Assembly: GCF_003056055.1 (NCBI RefSeq)
Contig: NZ_PYFP01000003.1
Coordinates: forward strand, 62,001-126,000
Source of the DNA: Glaciimonas sp. PCH181
GTDB lineage: Bacteria > Pseudomonadota > Gammaproteobacteria > Burkholderiales > Burkholderiaceae_D
DNA: 64,000 nt
Direction of reading: 5' to 3'
Notes under the pieces: model-generated
What the model was told of the DNA's origin: nothing
The model's input: the letters and a program-made list of their open reading frames with translations, nothing else
Databases searched by the model: none
Shown here: positions 2,903 to 53,408 of the stretch, piece after piece
How the letters are laid out: the number at the start of each line of letters is the position of its first letter
Numbering within the stretch: the stretch's first letter is position 1
Made by a program: the position numbers and the translations under genes

Positions 2903-3330
2903 AGCTAGTAGTTAGCTGAGTTGGCAAAGCGGGATAAAATCGACGGGGAGGGAAACACGATTTATCTCTGCCAAGCCAGCAGGGTCCACCACTAGATCCA
3001 ACAGGCAATCGAGAAGTCGCTGTGACAAAGCATCGTTACAGCAACAACATTTTTTGCCAATTCCTTCAGAGATTTGAGCCGAACAGGTTACCGGACCTGC
3101 TCGGCTTTTTTGTTTTTGCGGCGAGTATTTTCAATCCCCCAGCACAGCTAAGGTAACGGTCATTTCCCCCCATAAAATTTGCCCAAAACAAGCTCGGTTA
3201 AGCACCATCGCTTCTTAGTCCGGTTACTTGCCCTGATTCACGCATCCCTCTCTATACAAATTGGCATTTATGACTGTCCAAAACTGTCAGGATTTGCTAT
3301 CGTCATTAACCATTCCCCAATCCTGAAAAT
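2903..3330. other. Intergenic region with terminator, otherwise empty
   Basis: 428 bp between the MFS gene and purT. It holds a clear intrinsic terminator about 175 bases after the MFS stop, and presumably the purT promoter after it. The long distance from stop to terminator could hide a 3'-derived small RNA, but I see no second structure that supports one. Confidence 0.5.
3076..3117 (+). terminator. Rho-independent terminator
   Basis: Stem AGCCGA-ACAGGT pairs with ACCTGC-TCGGCT around a TACCGG loop, followed by T6 and a further T-rich tail. Oriented with, and downstream of, the MFS transporter gene. Confidence 0.85.
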
Positions 3331-4711: not shown

Positions 4712-6313
4712 ATGAAATTCGATGTCGCCATTATCGGTAGCGGCCTGGCCGGTCTCTCTGTTGCTCTCCACCTTGCAGAAAAAAGTAAGGTGGTGGTCAT
4801 TTCCAAACGCGCACTTCTAGACGGTGCCAGCAATTGGGCGCAAGGCGGTATCGCTGCGGTGCTCGATTCTGGAGATAGTTATGAAGAGCACATTTCTGAC
4901 ACGCTGGTGGCGGGCGGCGGTTTGTGCGATGAAGGCGCGACGCGTTACATCGTGGAACATGGCCGCGAGGCAATTGAATGGCTGATTGCGCAAGGTGTGC
5001 CGTTCACGCCGGATGCCAGCGCGGAGATGGGTTTCCATCTCACCCGTGAAGGCGGCCACAGCCAGCGCCGGATTATTCATGCGGCCGATGCTACAGGGCA
5101 CGCGGTGCAAGTCACGCTGGAACAAAAAGTCCGCGCGCATCCAAACATTACGTTACTTGAGGATCATTATGCGATTGATCTGATCACCTCGACCAAGATT
5201 GATGCCAAAGGGACGACGCCGCATTGCCTCGGGTTGTATGCCAAAAACGTCAAGACCGGCAAAGTACTGACAATCAGCGCCGATCATACGGTGATGGCTA
5301 CTGGCGGTGCTGGCAAAGTCTATTTGTACACGACCAATCCTGACACTGCCACTGGCGACGGGATTGCGATGGCATGGCGGGCGGGCTGCCGTGTTGCCAA
5401 CATGGAATTCATTCAGTTTCATCCAACTTGTTTGTACCATCCGTATGCTAAGTCGTTTTTGATCACGGAGGCAATCCGTGGTGAAGGTGGTTTGTTGAAA
5501 TTGCCGGACACTGAGGGCGAAGATGCAGGCCGACGTTTTATGCCGGATCATGATGAGCGCGAAGAACTGGCGCCACGCGATATCGTGGCGCGGGCGATTG
5601 ACTTTGAGATGAAAAAACGTGGTTTAGATCATGTTGATCTGGATATCAGCCATAAATCGCCGGAATTTTTGCAAGAACATTTTCCGACGATTTATGCGCG
5701 TTGTTTGGAATTGGGGATTGATATTACTAAGCAACCGATTCCGGTTGTGCCTGCGGTGCATTTTACCTGCGGGGGTGTGGTGACGGATTTGAATGGTAGG
5801 ACTGACTTGCCGGGCTTGTATGCAGTTGGCGAGACTGCTTATACAGGCTTGCATGGGGCTAATCGGTTGGCTAGCAATTCACTGTTAGAGTGCGTTGTTA
5901 TTGGGCGCGCGACTGCGAAATATATCGAGCAGCAACCGAAGCCTAAAGCACATCCGCTTCCGGCTTGGGATGAAAGCCGTGTTACTGACGCTGATGAAGA
6001 AGTAGTTATCGCGCATAACTGGGATGAGCTGCGGCGGTTTATGTGGAATTATGTTGGGATTGTCCGGACGAATAAACGTTTGGAACGGGCGCAACATCGG
6101 ATTCGATTGTTGAAGGAAGAAATCGACGAGTATTACGCGCATTTTCGGATTAGCCGGGATTTGCTGGAGTTGCGTAATTTAGTGCAGGTGGCTTCGTTGA
6201 TTGTTGAGAGTGCGTTGTCACGACGTGAGAGTCGGGGGTTGCATTATAGTCAGGATTATCCTGAGACTTTAGCTAAGGCTTTGCCTACGGTTTTGACGCC
6301 TGAACGGCGGTGA
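4712..6313 (+). CDS. nadB: L-aspartate oxidase
   Basis: NadB, 533 residues, oxidises L-aspartate to iminoaspartate, the first step of de novo NAD synthesis. It has the N-terminal FAD-binding motif [17 protein letters not shown] (about 7-23), the flavin/substrate segments SNWAQGGIA and [14 protein letters not shown] HLTREGGHS, the GGAGKVY stretch, and the late [16 protein letters not shown] motif. The C-terminal helical domain is complete. It converges on nadC, with only 134 bases between the two stops. The 3' half differs strongly in codon choice from the 5' half: by my count 48 of the last 54 codons end in G or T, against 26 of the first 54. This rises towards the palindromic element that follows. 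Confidence 0.97.
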
Positions 6314-6322
6314 GTTTGGGGA

Positions 6323-6437
6323 CGGTTTCGGTTGGAGGTAATTGAAACGGGTTTTTCTCCGTGGAGTCAAGCCGGGGGCGGCCCGGCAAAGCCTCCACCG
6401 AGCGCTAACCGTTTCAGCAACCAACAAGCCGAAACCG
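6323..6437. repeat. Palindromic intergenic element, copy A
   Basis: A 115-bp imperfect palindrome fills the gap between the convergent nadB and nadC genes. Outer arms at 6323-6362 and 6397-6437 pair over about 40 bases. Inside them are CTCCGTGGAG against CTCCACCGAG and an apical GCCGGG/CCCGGC hairpin. The 18-mer AAACGGGTTTTTCTCCGT (6345-6362) recurs exactly in copy B on the other strand, and the right arms of the two copies are also alike. It could act as a bidirectional terminator, but the conserved sequence suggests a mobile or dispersed repeat family. No coding capacity. Confidence 0.85.
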
Positions 6438-6447
6438 AACGATCAAC

Positions 6448-7332
6448 CTACTCCACTATCCTCAAGGAATAATCAGCAGCCCGAATATCCTTAGTCAAAC
6501 TTCCAATAGAAATCCGGTCAACCCCGATCTCGGCGATAGCCCGAACAGTCTCCATATTGATCCCACCAGAAGCCTCCAACAACGCCCGACCGGCAGTCAC
6601 ACGAACTGCATCCCGCATCGCATCCAGACTAAAATTATCCAGCAAAACAGACGTAGCGCCAGCTGCCAAAGCCTCATCCAGCTGCACCAGACTTTCCACC
6701 TCAACCTGAATCGTCACACCAGCATTCAGGTTTTGCGCGGCAAGCATCGCCGCACTAATCCCACCAGCCGCAGCAATATGATTTTCTTTAATCAAAATCC
6801 CGTCATACAACGCCAATCGCTGATTATGCCCACCACCAACACGCACCGCATATTTCTGCGCCAAACGCAAACCCGGCAAGGTCTTACGCGTATCCAGAAT
6901 CTGCGCTTTAGTATCCGCAATCAGATCAACATACTTGCGCGTAGCAGTCGCCACGCCCGATAACAATTGCAAGAAATTAAGCGAACCGCGCTCGGCAGTC
7001 AGTAAGCTGCGGGCTGGGGCAGAAATATCACAAACGGGGCTATCAGCCGCCATCACATCGCCCTCGGCATAATGCCACTCAATCCGAATCCGGCTGTCCA
7101 GCCGCTGCATTACCGCCTCAAACCAAGGCGCGCCGCACAAAACTGCTTCCTCACGCACGATCACACGTGCTTTCACCATATCATCGGCAGGCACCAACAT
7201 ACCGGTGAAATCCCCAATCCCAACATCTTCGGCAATCGCCGCATTGATATTGTTTTCAAAGGCGGTCTGCAATGCTTGATCAAACGGTGCAAAACGATTC
7301 GTTAATGTGCTGCTATTGATAGGCGAACTCAT
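6448..7332 (-). CDS. nadC: Nicotinate-nucleotide pyrophosphorylase (quinolinate phosphoribosyltransferase)
   Basis: NadC, 294 residues, converts quinolinate and PRPP to nicotinate mononucleotide. Family landmarks are [10 protein letters not shown] near the N-terminus, [12 protein letters not shown] with the substrate-binding arginines (about 145-156), [13 protein letters not shown], and the glycine-rich EASGGI and DRISIGSLT phosphate-binding strands at the C-terminus. Its ATG overlaps the nadA stop by four bases (ATGA), so the two are translationally coupled. Its 3' end, like that of nadB facing it, is enriched in codons ending in G or T (44 of the last 54 by my count, against 35 of the first 54). 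Confidence 0.96.
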
Positions 7333-28573: not shown

Positions 28574-29458
28574 ATGCATCTACCTCCTCTAAAATCGGTC
28601 ATCGCATTTGAAGTCGTCGCCCGTCATACCAACATCAGCAAGGCGGCTGAGGAGTTAAATCTGACGCCGTCAGCGGTCAGTCATCAAATCTCTAATCTGG
28701 AAGCTTTTATAGGGATGAAATTGTTTGAGCGCACATTTCGGGGCGTTACGCTGACACCCGCCGGTGAGCGTTATCAACAAAGTCTGGCGGGGGCGTTGGC
28801 GTTGATTGCGAATGCTGCGCAAAGTGCGCGTGGGGAGGATGGGATTGAGATATTGCGGGTGCATAGTGCGCCCAGTTTTGCCAGTCTGTGGTTGATGCCG
28901 CGTTTGCCACATTTTATGAAGACGCATCCGGATATTCGGTTGCGGTTGTCGGCGTCGCATATGTACACCGAGTTTTCGCATGGGGATATTGATTTGGATA
29001 TTCGATATGGGGCGGTGCGGTGGGCTGACTTACATGTGGAGACGATTTTTACTGAAGAGATTATGCCGGTGATTAGTCCGGCTTTATCTGCGGAATTGGA
29101 TTTGCGCGGTGCGCAGAATTTGTTGCAGCAAAATTTGATTTTTTCTGAGGTGAATCTGGTGCAGTGGCCGCAGTGGTTTGCTGCGCATGGGTTGCCGGTT
29201 AGCCCTAGCCAATATGGGTTGAGTTTTGATCGTGCTTATATGTCGATTGAGGCGGCGGTTCAGGGGTTGGGGATTGCTTTGGAAAGCAATCGGTTGTCGG
29301 AGGATTTTTTGAAGCGGGGGTTGTTGGTGCCGGTGTTTCCGGATCAAAGTGGGATTCGGGTTTATGCACATCATTTGGTTTATCCGGCGGCGCACGCTAA
29401 GCGGTCTAAGGTGGGGAGATTTATTGCCTGGATTATGGATCAGGCGGCAGGAAGATGA
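28574..29458 (+). CDS. LysR-family regulator, GcvA type
   Basis: A 294-residue transcription factor with an N-terminal winged helix (LPPLKSVIAFEVVARHTNISKAAEELNLTPSAVSHQISNLEAFIGMKLFER, about 3-55) and a co-inducer domain that contains the GcvA-like IDLDIRYG segment and the late GLGIALESNRL strand. It is divergent from the SDR-TRAP-transketolase operon and likely controls it. The second half has strongly shifted codon use: by my count 46 of the last 54 codons end in G or T, against 30 of the first 54, rising towards palindromic element B, which starts 16 bases past the stop. Confidence 0.93.
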   Translation: MHLPPLKSVIAFEVVARHTNISKAAEELNLTPSAVSHQISNLEAFIGMKLFERTFRGVTLTPAGERYQQSLAGALALIANAAQSARGEDGIEILRVHSAPSFASLWLMPRLPHFMKTHPDIRLRLSASHMYTEFSHGDIDLDIRYGAVRWADLHVETIFTEEIMPVISPALSAELDLRGAQNLLQQNLIFSEVNLVQWPQWFAAHGLPVSPSQYGLSFDRAYMSIEAAVQGLGIALESNRLSEDFLKRGLLVPVFPDQSGIRVYAHHLVYPAAHAKRSKVGRFIAWIMDQAAGR

Positions 29459-29473
29459 CATTGGATTTGTTTA

Positions 29474-29623
29474 GTTCAGTGTTGCTGGTTGTTGACACGG
29501 TTTGTGCTCCGTGGATGCAAACCAGGGGCACTTAACGAAGCAAAAAAAAAGTGACTAGCTGTCAGGCTACCCCCGACAAAATCTACGGAGAAAAACCCGT
29601 TTTAATCACCACCAAAACCGAAC
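29474..29623. repeat. Palindromic intergenic element, copy B
   Basis: 150 bp between the convergent LysR and phnE-like genes, ending exactly against the phnE-like stop. Inverted arms of 39 bases lie at 29474-29512 and 29585-29623; about 28 positions match. On the minus strand it contains the same 18-mer as copy A (29585-29602) and a right arm closely like that of copy A. The inside is longer than in copy A, with a T9 stretch followed by GCTTCG. I recall similar motifs in intergenic repeats of other Burkholderiales, but cannot verify this here. No coding capacity. Confidence 0.85.
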
Positions 29624-30478
29624 TTATTTCGTCAACCAGCTACGCAATATAAAACTAACAGAATCCACCACCGCCACCATCACCAGCATCGCCAAAATAA
29701 CATTAGCAGCCTGCTGCATCTGAAACAACGACAAATGGTATTTCAGCATCTGCCCCAATCCCCCCGCCCCTACAACCCCAAGGATCGCAGCAGCACGAAT
29801 ATTATTCTCCCACCGATACAAAGTATAAGACATCATCTGCGGCAAAGTCTGCTGCAATGTCGCATACAAAAACGCCGGAACAGCTCCAACACCATTAGTC
29901 CGCAACGTACTTTCCGGCAGCGAAGAAGTATTCTCATACGCATCCGCAAACAACCGCCCCAGCACGCCAGAAGTATGCGCAGCCAATGCCAGCGTGCCTG
30001 CAAACGGCCCAAGCCCCGCTGCAATCAACAATATCGACGCCCATACCAATTCAGGAATTGACCGCAGAACATTCAACAAAGTACGCGTCGCCGCCCGCGC
30101 AACACCACCAAACCGACCACTTGCTGGCAACCCCAAAACCACCCCCGCAATCGCCGCCAATATTGTCCCCAATGCCGACATCGATAACGTCTCCGCTGTA
30201 CCAATCGCAATTTTAAGCAAGAACGGCACAGACAACTCTGGCGGTGCAAAACCATGCAAAAACTCTCCCGTCGTCCGCACCGCTTCCTGCGTAAAAAATC
30301 CACCCCATTGCAGCGGCAACGAGATAAAACTGATGACGATCAGCGCCACTAAACCCAACAACAATGCAACCGTCGACAAGCGCCAGCGCGGTGCTTCCGG
30401 CAAAGTGGCGTATTCAGGAAGGACAGCTAACGCAGGATGTAACTTAACTGCCGCTGAGCGAGTGTTAATAGAAGCCAT
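29624..30478 (-). CDS. PhnE-type ABC permease (probable selenium oxyanion transporter), 1
   Basis: A 284-residue inner-membrane permease of the phosphonate/phosphite PhnE family. It has about six hydrophobic segments, the ELVWASILLIAAGLGPFAGTLALAAHTSGVLGRLFADAYEN cytoplasmic-coupling region, and GVVGAGGLGQMLKYHLSLF near the end. It shares one base with the preceding permease (TAATG). It is the last gene of the mnmH-selD-transporter operon, so selenate/selenite rather than phosphonate is the likely cargo (inference). By my count 46 of the last 54 codons end in G or T, against 34 of the first 54. Confidence 0.88.
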   Translation of the reverse strand: MASINTRSAAVKLHPALAVLPEYATLPEAPRWRLSTVALLLGLVALIVISFISLPLQWGGFFTQEAVRTTGEFLHGFAPPELSVPFLLKIAIGTAETLSMSALGTILAAIAGVVLGLPASGRFGGVARAATRTLLNVLRSIPELVWASILLIAAGLGPFAGTLALAAHTSGVLGRLFADAYENTSSLPESTLRTNGVGAVPAFLYATLQQTLPQMMSYTLYRWENNIRAAAILGVVGAGGLGQMLKYHLSLFQMQQAANVILAMLVMVAVVDSVSFILRSWLTK

Positions 30479-31335
30479 TAAGCAAGCCTTCCGCGCAACA
30501 TCTTGCTAACGGCATCCGCCGCGGCAACCAACAAAACAAAAATCAACAACATCGTCGATAACTCATCACCGGCCATCATTTTCATGGACTCATCCATGCG
30601 CTGACCAAGCCCGCCAGCGCCAACAAAACCCATCACAACCGATCCCCGGATTGCGCATTCCCAACGATAAACCGTGTACGACACCAATTCAGCCGCCGAC
30701 TCCGGCAACGCACCATATAACAGCGCAGCCAAACGTCCGCTGCCATTTTTTAGCAACGTATCCGATGCATGCGAATCCGAAGATTCAAGAATTTCCGCAT
30801 ACACTTTTCCCAGCATTCCGCAGTACGTCAATGCAATCGCGATCACCCCGGCGGTAGGCCCCAACCCTACGATACGCACCAACAATAAAGCCCACACCAA
30901 TTCAGGCACGCTACGCAGCAGCACCAGCAACCAACGCACAGCTTCCCGTACCAGCATCGCAAAACGCCCCATCCGCCCGGTGCCAAGGCGAGAAATCGAT
31001 AAATGCGCCGTCACGACCATCGTCATCGGTATCGCTGCCAGCATCGCCAACGTCATGCCGATGGTTGCCATTGCGATGGTGTCCCAAGTTGCACCGGCAA
31101 CCATTTTTAAAAATTCCAACGAATGCGCGGGCGGTGCAAAACTGGCGAGAAATTTACCTGTCGCGCCCAGACTTTGGGCGTCCAGTAATGTCCACGGCTT
31201 AAATTCGCTAAGCACCAGCATCGGCCATAGCAAGACCAGCGCGACGATAGACATCATGACGCGCCCACGCCATGCCGGATCGCGGTGCAAGTTGTCTTGC
31301 AATCGCAAGGCATTATTTGAATTGGGGGTAGACAT
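30478..31335 (-). CDS. PhnE-type ABC permease (probable selenium oxyanion transporter), 2
   Basis: A 285-residue partner permease with the same fold: ELVWALLLVRIVGLGPTAGVIAIALTYCGMLGKVYAEILES and GFVGAGGLGQRMDESMKMM. The start was placed at ATG 31335, ten bases after the ATPase stop, where the protein has the usual length; the open frame extends 47 codons further up, but only into the preceding gene. Forms a heterodimeric channel with the next permease. Two PhnE-like genes in a row are typical for this transporter subfamily. Confidence 0.87.
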   Translation of the reverse strand: MSTPNSNNALRLQDNLHRDPAWRGRVMMSIVALVLLWPMLVLSEFKPWTLLDAQSLGATGKFLASFAPPAHSLEFLKMVAGATWDTIAMATIGMTLAMLAAIPMTMVVTAHLSISRLGTGRMGRFAMLVREAVRWLLVLLRSVPELVWALLLVRIVGLGPTAGVIAIALTYCGMLGKVYAEILESSDSHASDTLLKNGSGRLAALLYGALPESAAELVSYTVYRWECAIRGSVVMGFVGAGGLGQRMDESMKMMAGDELSTMLLIFVLLVAAADAVSKMLRGRLA

Positions 31336-31345
31336 GGATACGGAC

Positions 31346-32203
31346 TTAGCAGCGCGGCGTGAGCGCGGCAGATGCCAGCGCTGGTTGCACCATGGAAGAA
31401 TGCGCATCGTGTTGCGCCGTTTCGCCGTCTGGCGTTTGTTCGCCGCTGGCTTCGCTACTATTCCGATACAGCGCATCGATCATGGCATTGGTCACATTTT
31501 CCCGCGCAGCATCAAATACAATGCGGCCGCCTCTCAGCCCAACGATCCGGGGGAAATATTCACGTGCCAATGCAACCTGATGCAGACTGCATATGAGAGT
31601 TGCGCCGCGTGTGCTTGCTTCCTGCTGCAATACCGACAAGGTCTGTAAAGCCAGCGTAGGGTCTAGCGCCGATAACGGCTCATCGACTAAAAATAAGTCG
31701 GCCTGACTAATTAATAGTCGCGCCATGCCGCAGCGTTGCCGCTCTCCACCGGACAAACGATCCACCCGTGCGTAAAGTTTATCTTGCAAATTCACCCGCG
31801 CCAAAGCATTAAAAGCGGCGATTGGATAAGCCGGTTTGATGAGCGATCTGATCGCTTGCCATACGCTCCATTGCGGCAACAAGCCCGCCAATACAGCACT
31901 GACTACACGCTGACGTGGTGGCAACGGCGGCGTTTGCGGTGCCAAAAAAAGACGCGCACGTAACGCATGGCGGGCAGCACTGCTCAGCCGCCATGGATCT
32001 TCGCCAAACAAGGTAAAACTACCCTGCTCCGGCTTTAATGCGCAAGCCAGGGTATGCAGCAACGTGGTCTTGCCCGCGCCGGACGGCCCGATCAGCGCGA
32101 TCTGTTCGCCCTGATCGATTGCCAGCGTCAAGTCTTGCAACGCTAGCGTGGCATTGGTTGCACTTGGATGACGAACAGATAAATTAGTGAAAGAAAATAT
32201 CAT
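31346..32203 (-). CDS. PhnC-type ABC ATP-binding protein (probable selenium oxyanion transporter)
   Basis: A 285-residue ATPase. Walker A GPSGAGKTT (about 38-46), a Q-loop region around LFLAPQTPPLPPRQRV, signature LSGGERQRCGMARLL and Walker B LFLVDEPLSALDP are all present, as in PhnC. A C-terminal tail of about 35 residues (Glu/Gln/Ser/Ala-rich) extends past the usual domain end. Gap of 10 bases from the binding-protein gene. Couples ATP hydrolysis to the two permeases that follow. Confidence 0.9.
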   Translation of the reverse strand: MIFSFTNLSVRHPSATNATLALQDLTLAIDQGEQIALIGPSGAGKTTLLHTLACALKPEQGSFTLFGEDPWRLSSAARHALRARLFLAPQTPPLPPRQRVVSAVLAGLLPQWSVWQAIRSLIKPAYPIAAFNALARVNLQDKLYARVDRLSGGERQRCGMARLLISQADLFLVDEPLSALDPTLALQTLSVLQQEASTRGATLICSLHQVALAREYFPRIVGLRGGRIVFDAARENVTNAMIDALYRNSSEASGEQTPDGETAQHDAHSSMVQPALASAALTPRC

Positions 32204-45630: not shown

Positions 45631-45846
45631 TTAAATCTTGGCGATCGATACTTCGGTCGCTTTTACCAGCGCGACGACTTCAGTACCGATCACCAGGCCC
45701 AAATCCTTGACCGAACGTGTCGTAATGACAGAAGTGACGATACCGGCAGGCGTTTCGACATCGATTTCGGACACGACTGTGCCTTCGATGATGGCTTTGA
45801 TACGGCCTTTGAATTGATTACGTACATTGATGGCTTGAATCGACAT
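45631..45846 (-). CDS. Molbindin-like TOBE/Mop protein, copy 2
   Basis: A 71-residue single Mop domain (starting MSIQAINVRNQFKGRIKAIIEG, then SVITTRSVKDLGLVIGTEVVALVKATEVSI). Mop domains bind molybdate or tungstate oxyanions as oligomers. It is a close tandem paralogue of the gene 92 bases upstream. Good AGGAAA site. In a sulfonate/sulfate cluster it may buffer molybdate, a sulfate analogue, or sense oxyanions; this is inference. Confidence 0.88.
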   Translation of the reverse strand: MSIQAINVRNQFKGRIKAIIEGTVVSEIDVETPAGIVTSVITTRSVKDLGLVIGTEVVALVKATEVSIAKI

Positions 45847-45938: not shown

Positions 45939-46157
45939 TTAGGCCAGTTTGCCGATCGATACTTCTGTTGCCTTGATCAGCGCCACGACTTCAGAACCGA
46001 TGACCAGACCTAAATCCCGGACTGAACGGGTAGTAATGACGGATGACACAATTCCTATCGGCGTTTCGATATCGAGACCGGATAAGACTTCATCCTCAAC
46101 GATACTGATGATTTTTCCTCTGAATTGATTGCGAACATTGATTGCCTGAATACTCAT
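45939..46157 (-). CDS. Molbindin-like TOBE/Mop protein, copy 1
   Basis: A 72-residue Mop domain, about three quarters identical by eye to the downstream copy (MSIQAINVRNQFRGKIISIVED, SVITTRSVRDLGLVIGSEVVALIKATEVSI). The differences cluster at about residues 15-35. Strong AAGGAGACGAA before the ATG. It follows ssuB by 63 bases in the same direction, so it is likely transcribed with the sulfonate genes. Confidence 0.88.
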   Translation of the reverse strand: MSIQAINVRNQFRGKIISIVEDEVLSGLDIETPIGIVSSVITTRSVRDLGLVIGSEVVALIKATEVSIGKLA

Positions 46158-53178: not shown

Positions 53179-53205
53179 GATCTGCTTTCCCTTAAGAGCG
53201 TTATC

Positions 53206-53280
53206 AGAGCTTCCTCAAAATCGCCTCAGCAGCGCGCTGGACCATGCATCACGCGGCTGAGGCGATTTTGCGGAAGTTCT
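53206..53280. repeat. Long inverted repeat in the sbp 5' region
   Basis: Arms at 53206-53236 and 53250-53280 match at 27 of 31 positions around a 13-base loop containing ATGCAT. It starts 28 bases before the sbp ATG. No T-tract follows in either direction, so it is not a standard terminator. Possible roles are mRNA stabiliser, translational control, or a small palindromic mobile sequence. Confidence 0.75.
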
Positions 53281-53408
53281 GTTTTATGTTTTGGAGAAGA
53301 CAGAATAATCAGACGGAGAAAAAAAAAGAACGAATTCTTTCTTCTCTCGTTATGCGGAAAACAGATAAGCATGGACAAGCGCGATGAATAAGGGACCGCT
53401 GTTTCTCA

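Follow-up and report, generated by a model that had tools for sequence, protein, structure and literature searches.

Around a small dispersed repeat in the genome of Glaciimonas sp. PCH181, the strand composition of the genes within a kilobase or two is reset, and this happens independently of transcription. The pattern resembles a persistent mark left at every copy by some directional process acting on DNA, with recombination the likeliest candidate. On the strand that enters an arm of the repeat, third codon positions become rich in G and T, and the reset reaches amino-acid-changing positions in part. We know of no genome feature of this kind, and a literature search that left most subscription journals uncovered returned no paper describing such a repeat. 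Repeats like this one also call for caution, since they can locally distort analyses of codon usage and skew.

Two elements and their neighboring genes

We analyzed a window of 64,000 nucleotides (C3:62001-126000 of a 5.3-Mb genome in 6 contigs), in which a sequence-only reading had pointed to two copies of a short element flanked by G/T-rich gene ends. Coordinates without a contig name refer to this window, and gene calls throughout are simple longest-ORF calls. Element B (29483..29614, no strand assigned) was delimited by an arm profile, pattern matches and folding, and has two inverted arms flanking a truncated tail segment. It is an imperfect inverted repeat with opposed arms of about 45 bp each, and the core ACGG-N6-CTCCGT was matched at 29497-29512 on the plus strand and at 29585-29600 on the minus strand. 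The gap between the neighboring genes (29459-29623) folded with z values of -3.80 (minus strand) and -3.53 (plus strand) against 200 dinucleotide shuffles, beating all 200 on one strand and all except one on the other. Element A (6333..6426, no strand assigned), the window's second copy, also has two arms, found by the arm profile and by an 18-mer in common with B. The 18-mer is the longest exact match between the two elements and lies on opposite strands, exactly as had been claimed.

Element B is approached by a LysR-family regulator gene (28574..29458, plus strand; Pfam LysR_substrate and HTH_1) and a phnE-like ABC transporter permease gene (29624..30478, minus strand; Pfam BPD_transp_1), both directed at it. 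The codon counts first reported for these genes were reproduced: codons ending in G or T increase from 30 of the first 54 to 46 of the last 54 in the LysR gene and from 34 to 46 in the phnE-like gene. The left footprint lies within the LysR gene (28742..29482, plus strand), with plus-strand G+T of 0.61-0.71 per 200 bp. The right footprint (29615..30940, minus strand) runs through the phnE-like gene into the next one and has a plus-strand G+T of 0.30-0.39 per 200 bp, meaning that the minus strand is rich in G/T; in that next gene (30478-31476), 42 of the last 54 codons end in G/T. Among 16 loci found, the closest to the phnE-like protein was a Glaciimonas immobilis homolog (83% identity in the best segment), with G/T at the codon end in 33 of its last 54 codons. 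At element A, the left footprint lies within a nadB-like gene (5381..6332, plus strand; G+T profile and G/T at third codon positions, GT3) and the right footprint in a nadC-like gene for quinolinate phosphoribosyltransferase (6427..7180, minus strand; G+T profile, Pfam and codon counts). Here G/T-ending codons increase between the first and last 54 from 26 to 48 (nadB-like) and from 35 to 44 (nadC-like).

The difference between left and right G+T, taken over 700 bp on each side, was 0.33 at B and 0.24 at A. At 3019 random points the same measure had a mean of 0.003 and a standard deviation of 0.035, with 0.2% of points exceeding 0.13, so the suspicion that chance was an unlikely cause was well founded.

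Two other repeats in the window were recorded. One, at 53205-53281, is an intergenic inverted repeat of 35 nt whose halves are 86% complementary around a 7-nt loop; it is without the element's arms. Two tandem genes for small TOBE-domain proteins on the minus strand (45631-45846 and 45939-46157) are the source of the window's longest listed direct repeat (234 nt, 71%).

Copies and architecture of the repeat

That the element belongs to a repeat family was borne out, and the case in which no further copies exist does not apply: the repeat is dispersed, and BLAST with element B gave 42 matches at E<=10 in its own genome. A one-arm profile found 32 loci in 1.6 Mb and another 22 in 20 other stretches (329 kb), for a total of 54 loci in approximately 1.93 Mb. 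The profile was built from 20 sequences taken at skew switches, all within the four blocks that also contain the 32 loci. The 22 additional loci lie outside those blocks, in stretches picked by BLAST or pattern matches; they are not blind, as match flanks in 9 of the 20 stretches had already been examined, and 3 of the 20 (L224, L232, and L235) had no profile match. Merging four close pairs leaves 50 loci; these pairs are opposed arms, at least one of them split by an insertion, giving about 50 elements. One locus among the 54 (C1_200001:399811) has a cut right flank.

Many loci have two arms facing each other, and others have one recognized arm. In full-length copies from relatives, a single arm precedes a tail about 200 bases long. 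The ACGG-N6-CTCCGT core had 50 matches in the genome versus 14 for a reversed control. Matches to element B at E<=0.01, mostly to the tail core, occurred in 11 of 60 genomes including its own, in 7 genera and two families. Of 294 genomes of the family, 11, belonging to two genera, had a stricter arm pattern, and 12 loci from these genomes resemble the same arm-plus-tail form.

A relative's full-length element (L048:1400-1640), used as a query, matched one plasmid record, from Ilyobacter polytropus, over 46 bases; it matched no phage record. The matched tail core (46 bases, 93.5%) occurs at 6 places on that plasmid (NC_014633.1), which belongs to a distant bacterium. We also observed G/T-rich short tandem repeats (GTTAG-like or GTTCA-like), reminiscent of telomere-like tracts, immediately 5' of some arms (G002:C1 near 4989700, L049; G000:C3 near 276460, G000 being the genome under study). 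A known structured RNA was rejected as an identity for the element. The window had no Rfam match at the gathering threshold, and 7 loci searched at E<=1 gave 5 matches, none over cut-off at the element; the only one over cut-off was a C4 antisense RNA away from it (L048:572-659).

Size, reach and polarity of the footprint

The footprint recurred at every locus examined in the genome by the left-right measure: plus-strand G+T was greater on the left than on the right at 54 of 54 loci, including all 22 outside the profile blocks. Of 74 arm sides that offered over 80 codons, 73 had a positive GT3 shift. The shift was 0.29 over the nearest 200 bp, had dropped to 0.16 at 0.8-1.0 kb and to 0.06 at 1.2-1.6 kb, and was about zero from 1.8 kb outward. 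The decay over hundreds of bases noticed in the sequence-only reading is therefore real, but the extent of the footprint, about 1-1.8 kb, goes past the interval 29294-29788 given for it. In the relatives G001, G002, and G004, scored against the codon background of the genome under study, footprints were shorter or weaker, with a shift of 0.29 over the nearest 250 bp, about 0.1 between 0.5 and 1 kb, and none farther out.

We also scanned 1.6 Mb for switches in G+T (700 bp on each side, threshold 0.16) and found 33 of the B type versus 5 of the opposite type. A profile locus lay within 200 bp of 17 of the 18 strongest, 19 of the 25 at >=0.20, and 21 of all 33. The switches without arms suggest that the footprint may persist after loss of the repeat or may have another cause. 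By eye, some resemble degenerate or partly deleted copies and others are unexplained; the one at G000:C1 near 2239967 and other arm-less switches hold at most scar-like remnants of the element.

Polarity was assessed in one-armed copies that have a tail and no second arm within 1.5 kb. The mean shift on the 5' side of the arm was 0.260 in 7 copies from the genome under study, 0.143 in 10 copies from G001, G002, and G004, and 0.154 in 7 copies from a second genus. On the tail side, in the outward-facing measure, the corresponding means were -0.018 (7 copies), -0.106 (9 copies) and -0.093 (6 copies). The 5' shift exceeded the tail shift in 21 of 22 paired copies (7/7 in the same genome, 8/9 in the same genus, and 6/6 in the second genus), by only 0.02-0.03 in two of the 7 own copies. 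It was positive in 20 of 24 one-armed copies and absent in the remaining four (L253, L190, L194, and L270), all from other genomes. The tail-side profile varied between near zero, same-strand G/T and opposite (two of the seven own copies), and in other genomes this variation may come partly from the codon background used for scoring. Eighteen sides without a recognized arm nevertheless had G/T values of 0.611 (11 sides, genes read towards the element) and 0.689 (7 sides, genes read away from it), which weakens a strict one-side rule; by eye, some of these sides seem to have lost a second arm. The footprint lies mainly 5' of the arms, and its polarity is not clean.

A proposed model of directional recombination

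Chi-directed recombination acts on the 5' side of the site, uses a 3'-ended strand, extends over 1-2 kb, works in either orientation and is mirrored when the site is doubled. The geometry of the footprint is broadly the same, which leads us to a tentative reading, plausible though short of probable, of the repeat as a REP-like element that acts as a directional, Chi-like recombination-promoting site with G/T-favoring fixation, perhaps through the TG preference of RecA. Under such a model, the arm-bearing strand 5' of each arm would time and again become single-stranded with a 3' end, and would serve RecA pairing across about 1-2 kb. On the exposed strand, G or T would be favored over A or C at fixation, and this preference, rather than mutation, would move synonymous and some non-synonymous sites to G/T. 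A pair of inverted arms would yield a two-sided, mirror-image footprint such as those at B and A. The break might begin at the element, or the element might direct the processing of breaks made elsewhere. Biased conversion of this sort presupposes recombination between differing genomes.

PMC3763553 describes RecA filaments as most stable on TGG repeats or TG-rich DNA and cites a claim that TGG-type patterns stretch for thousands of bases around Chi in E. coli; the reference list of that paper includes others that attribute such patterns to codon usage. It is possible, though open to considerable doubt, that the repeat is a naturally occurring, directional hotspot of recombination, at which a RecA pairing preference for G/T-rich single strands drives strand-specific, keto-biased gene conversion that rewrites the adjoining genes over 1-2 kb. 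If so, it would be a bacterial counterpart of hotspot-driven biased conversion.

We looked for the enzymes that such a process might employ in five genomes of the genus. RecA was found in all five. RecC is a component of the enzyme that reads Chi in E. coli, and a single RecC profile matched in none of the five; dependence on RecBCD was therefore rejected. A palindrome hotspot cleaved by SbcCD was likewise rejected, as a single SbcD profile gave no match over cut-off in the five genomes and none at E<=0.001 in the genome under study; there were three weak matches in G001. A large PDDEXK_1 protein is encoded in all five genomes, and one of these proteins lies in a 933-aa open frame, which we take to be an AddB-type partner. 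The 3' end of a 3447-bp gene, close to the PDDEXK_1 gene (C2:253453), is only 12 bp away from one element (G000:C2:249850-249985), so the putative recombination genes may carry the footprint themselves. A single Chi-like word was also rejected, as no short word accounts for the footprint; in 46 flanks of 1 kb each, GCTGGTGG was counted 5 times on the facing strand and 0 times on the other.

Substitution pattern near the elements

At two-fold sites within 400 bp of elements, genes read towards the element had T at 0.840 against a background of 0.595 and G at 0.747 against 0.459, changes in odds of 3.6-fold at C/T and 3.5-fold at A/G sites. Genes read away changed in the mirror direction, with C at 0.657 against 0.405 and A at 0.758 against 0.541 (2.8- and 2.7-fold). 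We then compared the facing strand with that of relative G002. At 0-400 bp, the changes and their reverses numbered 132/43 for C>T, 157/44 for A>G, 75/22 for C>G, and 66/21 for A>T, so that each of the four A/C-to-G/T changes was 3.1-3.6 times as frequent as its reverse. This excess faded to around 1 beyond 2.4 kb. A>C and G>T changes occurred at 0.7 and 1.1 times their reverse. Mismatch with the relative at 4-fold sites was 0.597 and 0.630 within 800 bp and 0.619 and 0.599 beyond 4 kb, below saturation (about 0.73) and not raised near elements. Because the bias is uniform across these changes and neutral in rate, it resembles a fixation bias more than a signature of damage.

The main and nearest rival to the recombination model is mutagenesis of the same exposed 3'-ended strand, with the footprint arising from C-to-T and A-to-G damage or from error-prone filling of gaps. 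The polarity, the decay and the transitions all agree with it, and codon positions 1 and 2 are shifted as well (0.61 versus 0.53 and 0.53 versus 0.48, within 200 bp in towards genes). However, the transversions are as biased as the transitions, and the 4-fold divergence in towards genes (0.598 ± 0.020) is below the 0.659 predicted by a model of one-way extra mutation. In away genes the observed mismatch of 0.649 ± 0.027 is near the mutation prediction of 0.661, the fixation model giving 0.621, so that taken alone these genes do not favor fixation. The two models are poorly separated by likelihood; fixation bias beat extra mutation only slightly (lnL -1463.1 versus -1464.8 and -834.1 versus -835.2). 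We consider mutagenesis an unlikely explanation that deserves serious attention, and the elements offer directional sites throughout the genome at which RecA sequence preference and single-strand damage could be tested against each other as forces shaping bacterial genomes.

TGG-type words near elements were modestly over-represented beyond synonymous shuffling. In towards genes near elements GGTGGTG occurred 42 times versus 25.0 in shuffles (z 4.4), compared with 109 versus 97.2 in the far control (z 1.1). In away genes, TGGTGG occurred 17 times versus 12.0 near elements, an enrichment similar to that in the far control (149 versus 113.5).

Replication and transcription as possible drivers

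Replication skew usually makes leading strands G/T-rich, and the element is structured, as judged from its folding. A fork might therefore stall at the hairpin and the preceding stretch be re-synthesized, amplifying the asymmetry between leading and lagging strands. We regard such a barrier as improbable. Loci normally replicate from one side, yet two-armed loci were symmetric, with mean shifts of 0.233 on the left and 0.262 on the right and both sides above 0.05 at 22 of 23 loci. This symmetry argues against an effect of fork direction.

Placement between convergent genes, noted at both elements in the window, proved not to be the rule. Only 19 of the 54 loci were convergent, while 32 had one gene towards and one away, 2 were divergent and 1 was at a block edge. 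This mixture of orientations allowed us to compare genes read towards and away from the element, using 99 of 108 sides; the rest were excluded because their flank was cut or a further element lay less than 3 kb away. On arm-bearing sides, towards genes (n=12806 codons) had G/T at 0.789 of third positions on the strand entering the arm, against a background of 0.541. For away genes (n=4644 codons) the value was 0.705 against 0.459, so the gain was 0.25 in both. An equal shift in genes read away from the element means that transcription does not drive it.

Another possible force is selection on transcripts to be G/U-rich or C/A-poor, for instance for reading that resists Rho or for terminator function. 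It would fit the fact that 52 of the 54 loci have at least one neighboring gene that points at the element, as at terminators. We find it quite improbable, as away genes bear the mirror bias in their sense strand and 151 convergent gaps lying more than 5 kb from any element averaged just 0.034 (standard deviation 0.048) for left minus right; tandem (587) and divergent (143) gaps averaged 0.002 and -0.013. R-loops or collisions driven by transcription at gene ends, which had been proposed from the sequence, would give the direction seen along the coding strand of convergent genes, but the equal shift in away genes contradicts them as the main cause and makes them very improbable.

The same genes in relatives

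The flanks of 7 of 20 elements (two blocks) could be aligned to relative G002, and at none of these 7 loci did G002 have an arm less than 1 kb away. There, G+T was 0.496-0.565 in G002 compared with 0.55-0.69 in the genome under study. The NadB protein of G002 is 95% identical to that encoded beside element A, and GT3 in the last 60 codons of nadB was 0.87 next to the element, whereas the G002 and G004 orthologs, both with a different sequence after nadB, had 0.57. The footprint is thus weak or absent at the same genes in a relative that lacks the arm; it follows the element and not the genes, as the sequence-only reading had supposed.

One element of the genome under study has a Mutator-family transposase gene (PF00872) between its two arms (L084:4433-5882, equal to G000:C3:384433-385882). 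GT3 was 0.50 in this gene but 0.87 and 0.81 over the final 100 codons of the two genes that lie outside the arms. The insertion, which is without skew, is presumably younger than the skew. IS remnants of similar look were seen by eye at other elements.

The notion that the repeat inserts where strand skew already switches, suggested by the near-perfect association between the strongest switches and profile loci, was rejected as hardly credible given the weaker skew in arm-less G002, the unskewed nadB of G004, the unskewed IS inside an element and the four one-armed copies of other genomes without a 5' shift.

Comparison with known systems

DNA uptake sequences also occur as inverted pairs at gene ends, as the element does, but they are far more numerous than the element core with its 50 genome matches. 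The skew between leading and lagging strands resembles the footprint in being a G/T-rich strand asymmetry with a switch in sign; the skew at the element, however, is local (1-2 kb), recurs at 54 sampled loci and is centered on a repeat.

In form the element resembles REP/BIME sequences (repetitive extragenic palindromes, often in inverted pairs), which are dispersed, palindromic and mostly downstream of tandem or convergent genes, and often have two units in opposite orientation, the units being 20-40 bp with GTAG or CGTC tags (abstract of PMC3733652). It differs in that its arm of about 45 bp lies inside a longer element, compared with the 20-40-bp unit given in that abstract, and in its kilobase strand footprint, which the abstract does not mention. 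The Y1_Tnp domain, searched for as a check on RAYT-type proteins, had one match per genome in all five genus members, over cut-off in four. Like REP/BIME, the element is dispersed, palindromic, intergenic and present in many copies, and it lies downstream of genes, with only 2 of 54 loci divergent.

Chi acts on its 5' side, and 'GT-rich islands' around Chi in E. coli were reportedly described by Tracy in 1997, with objections said to have been raised by Biaudet and by Colbert in 1998. In composition the element is reminiscent of Chi and these islands, with an effect that lies mainly, though not uniformly, on the 5' side, G/T richness on the strand that would be 3'-ended and agreement with the TG preference of RecA. 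Unlike Chi, it is not the octamer, the genus gave no match for RecC, and the site is an arm of about 45 bp with on the order of 100 copies instead of a short, frequent octamer. The mirror bias of away genes, and the lack of bias in orthologs that have no element beside them, remove the objection from codon usage in this case. If the recombination model is correct, the old claim that GT-rich islands surround recombination hotspots could be tested cleanly on this repeat, in a natural setting.
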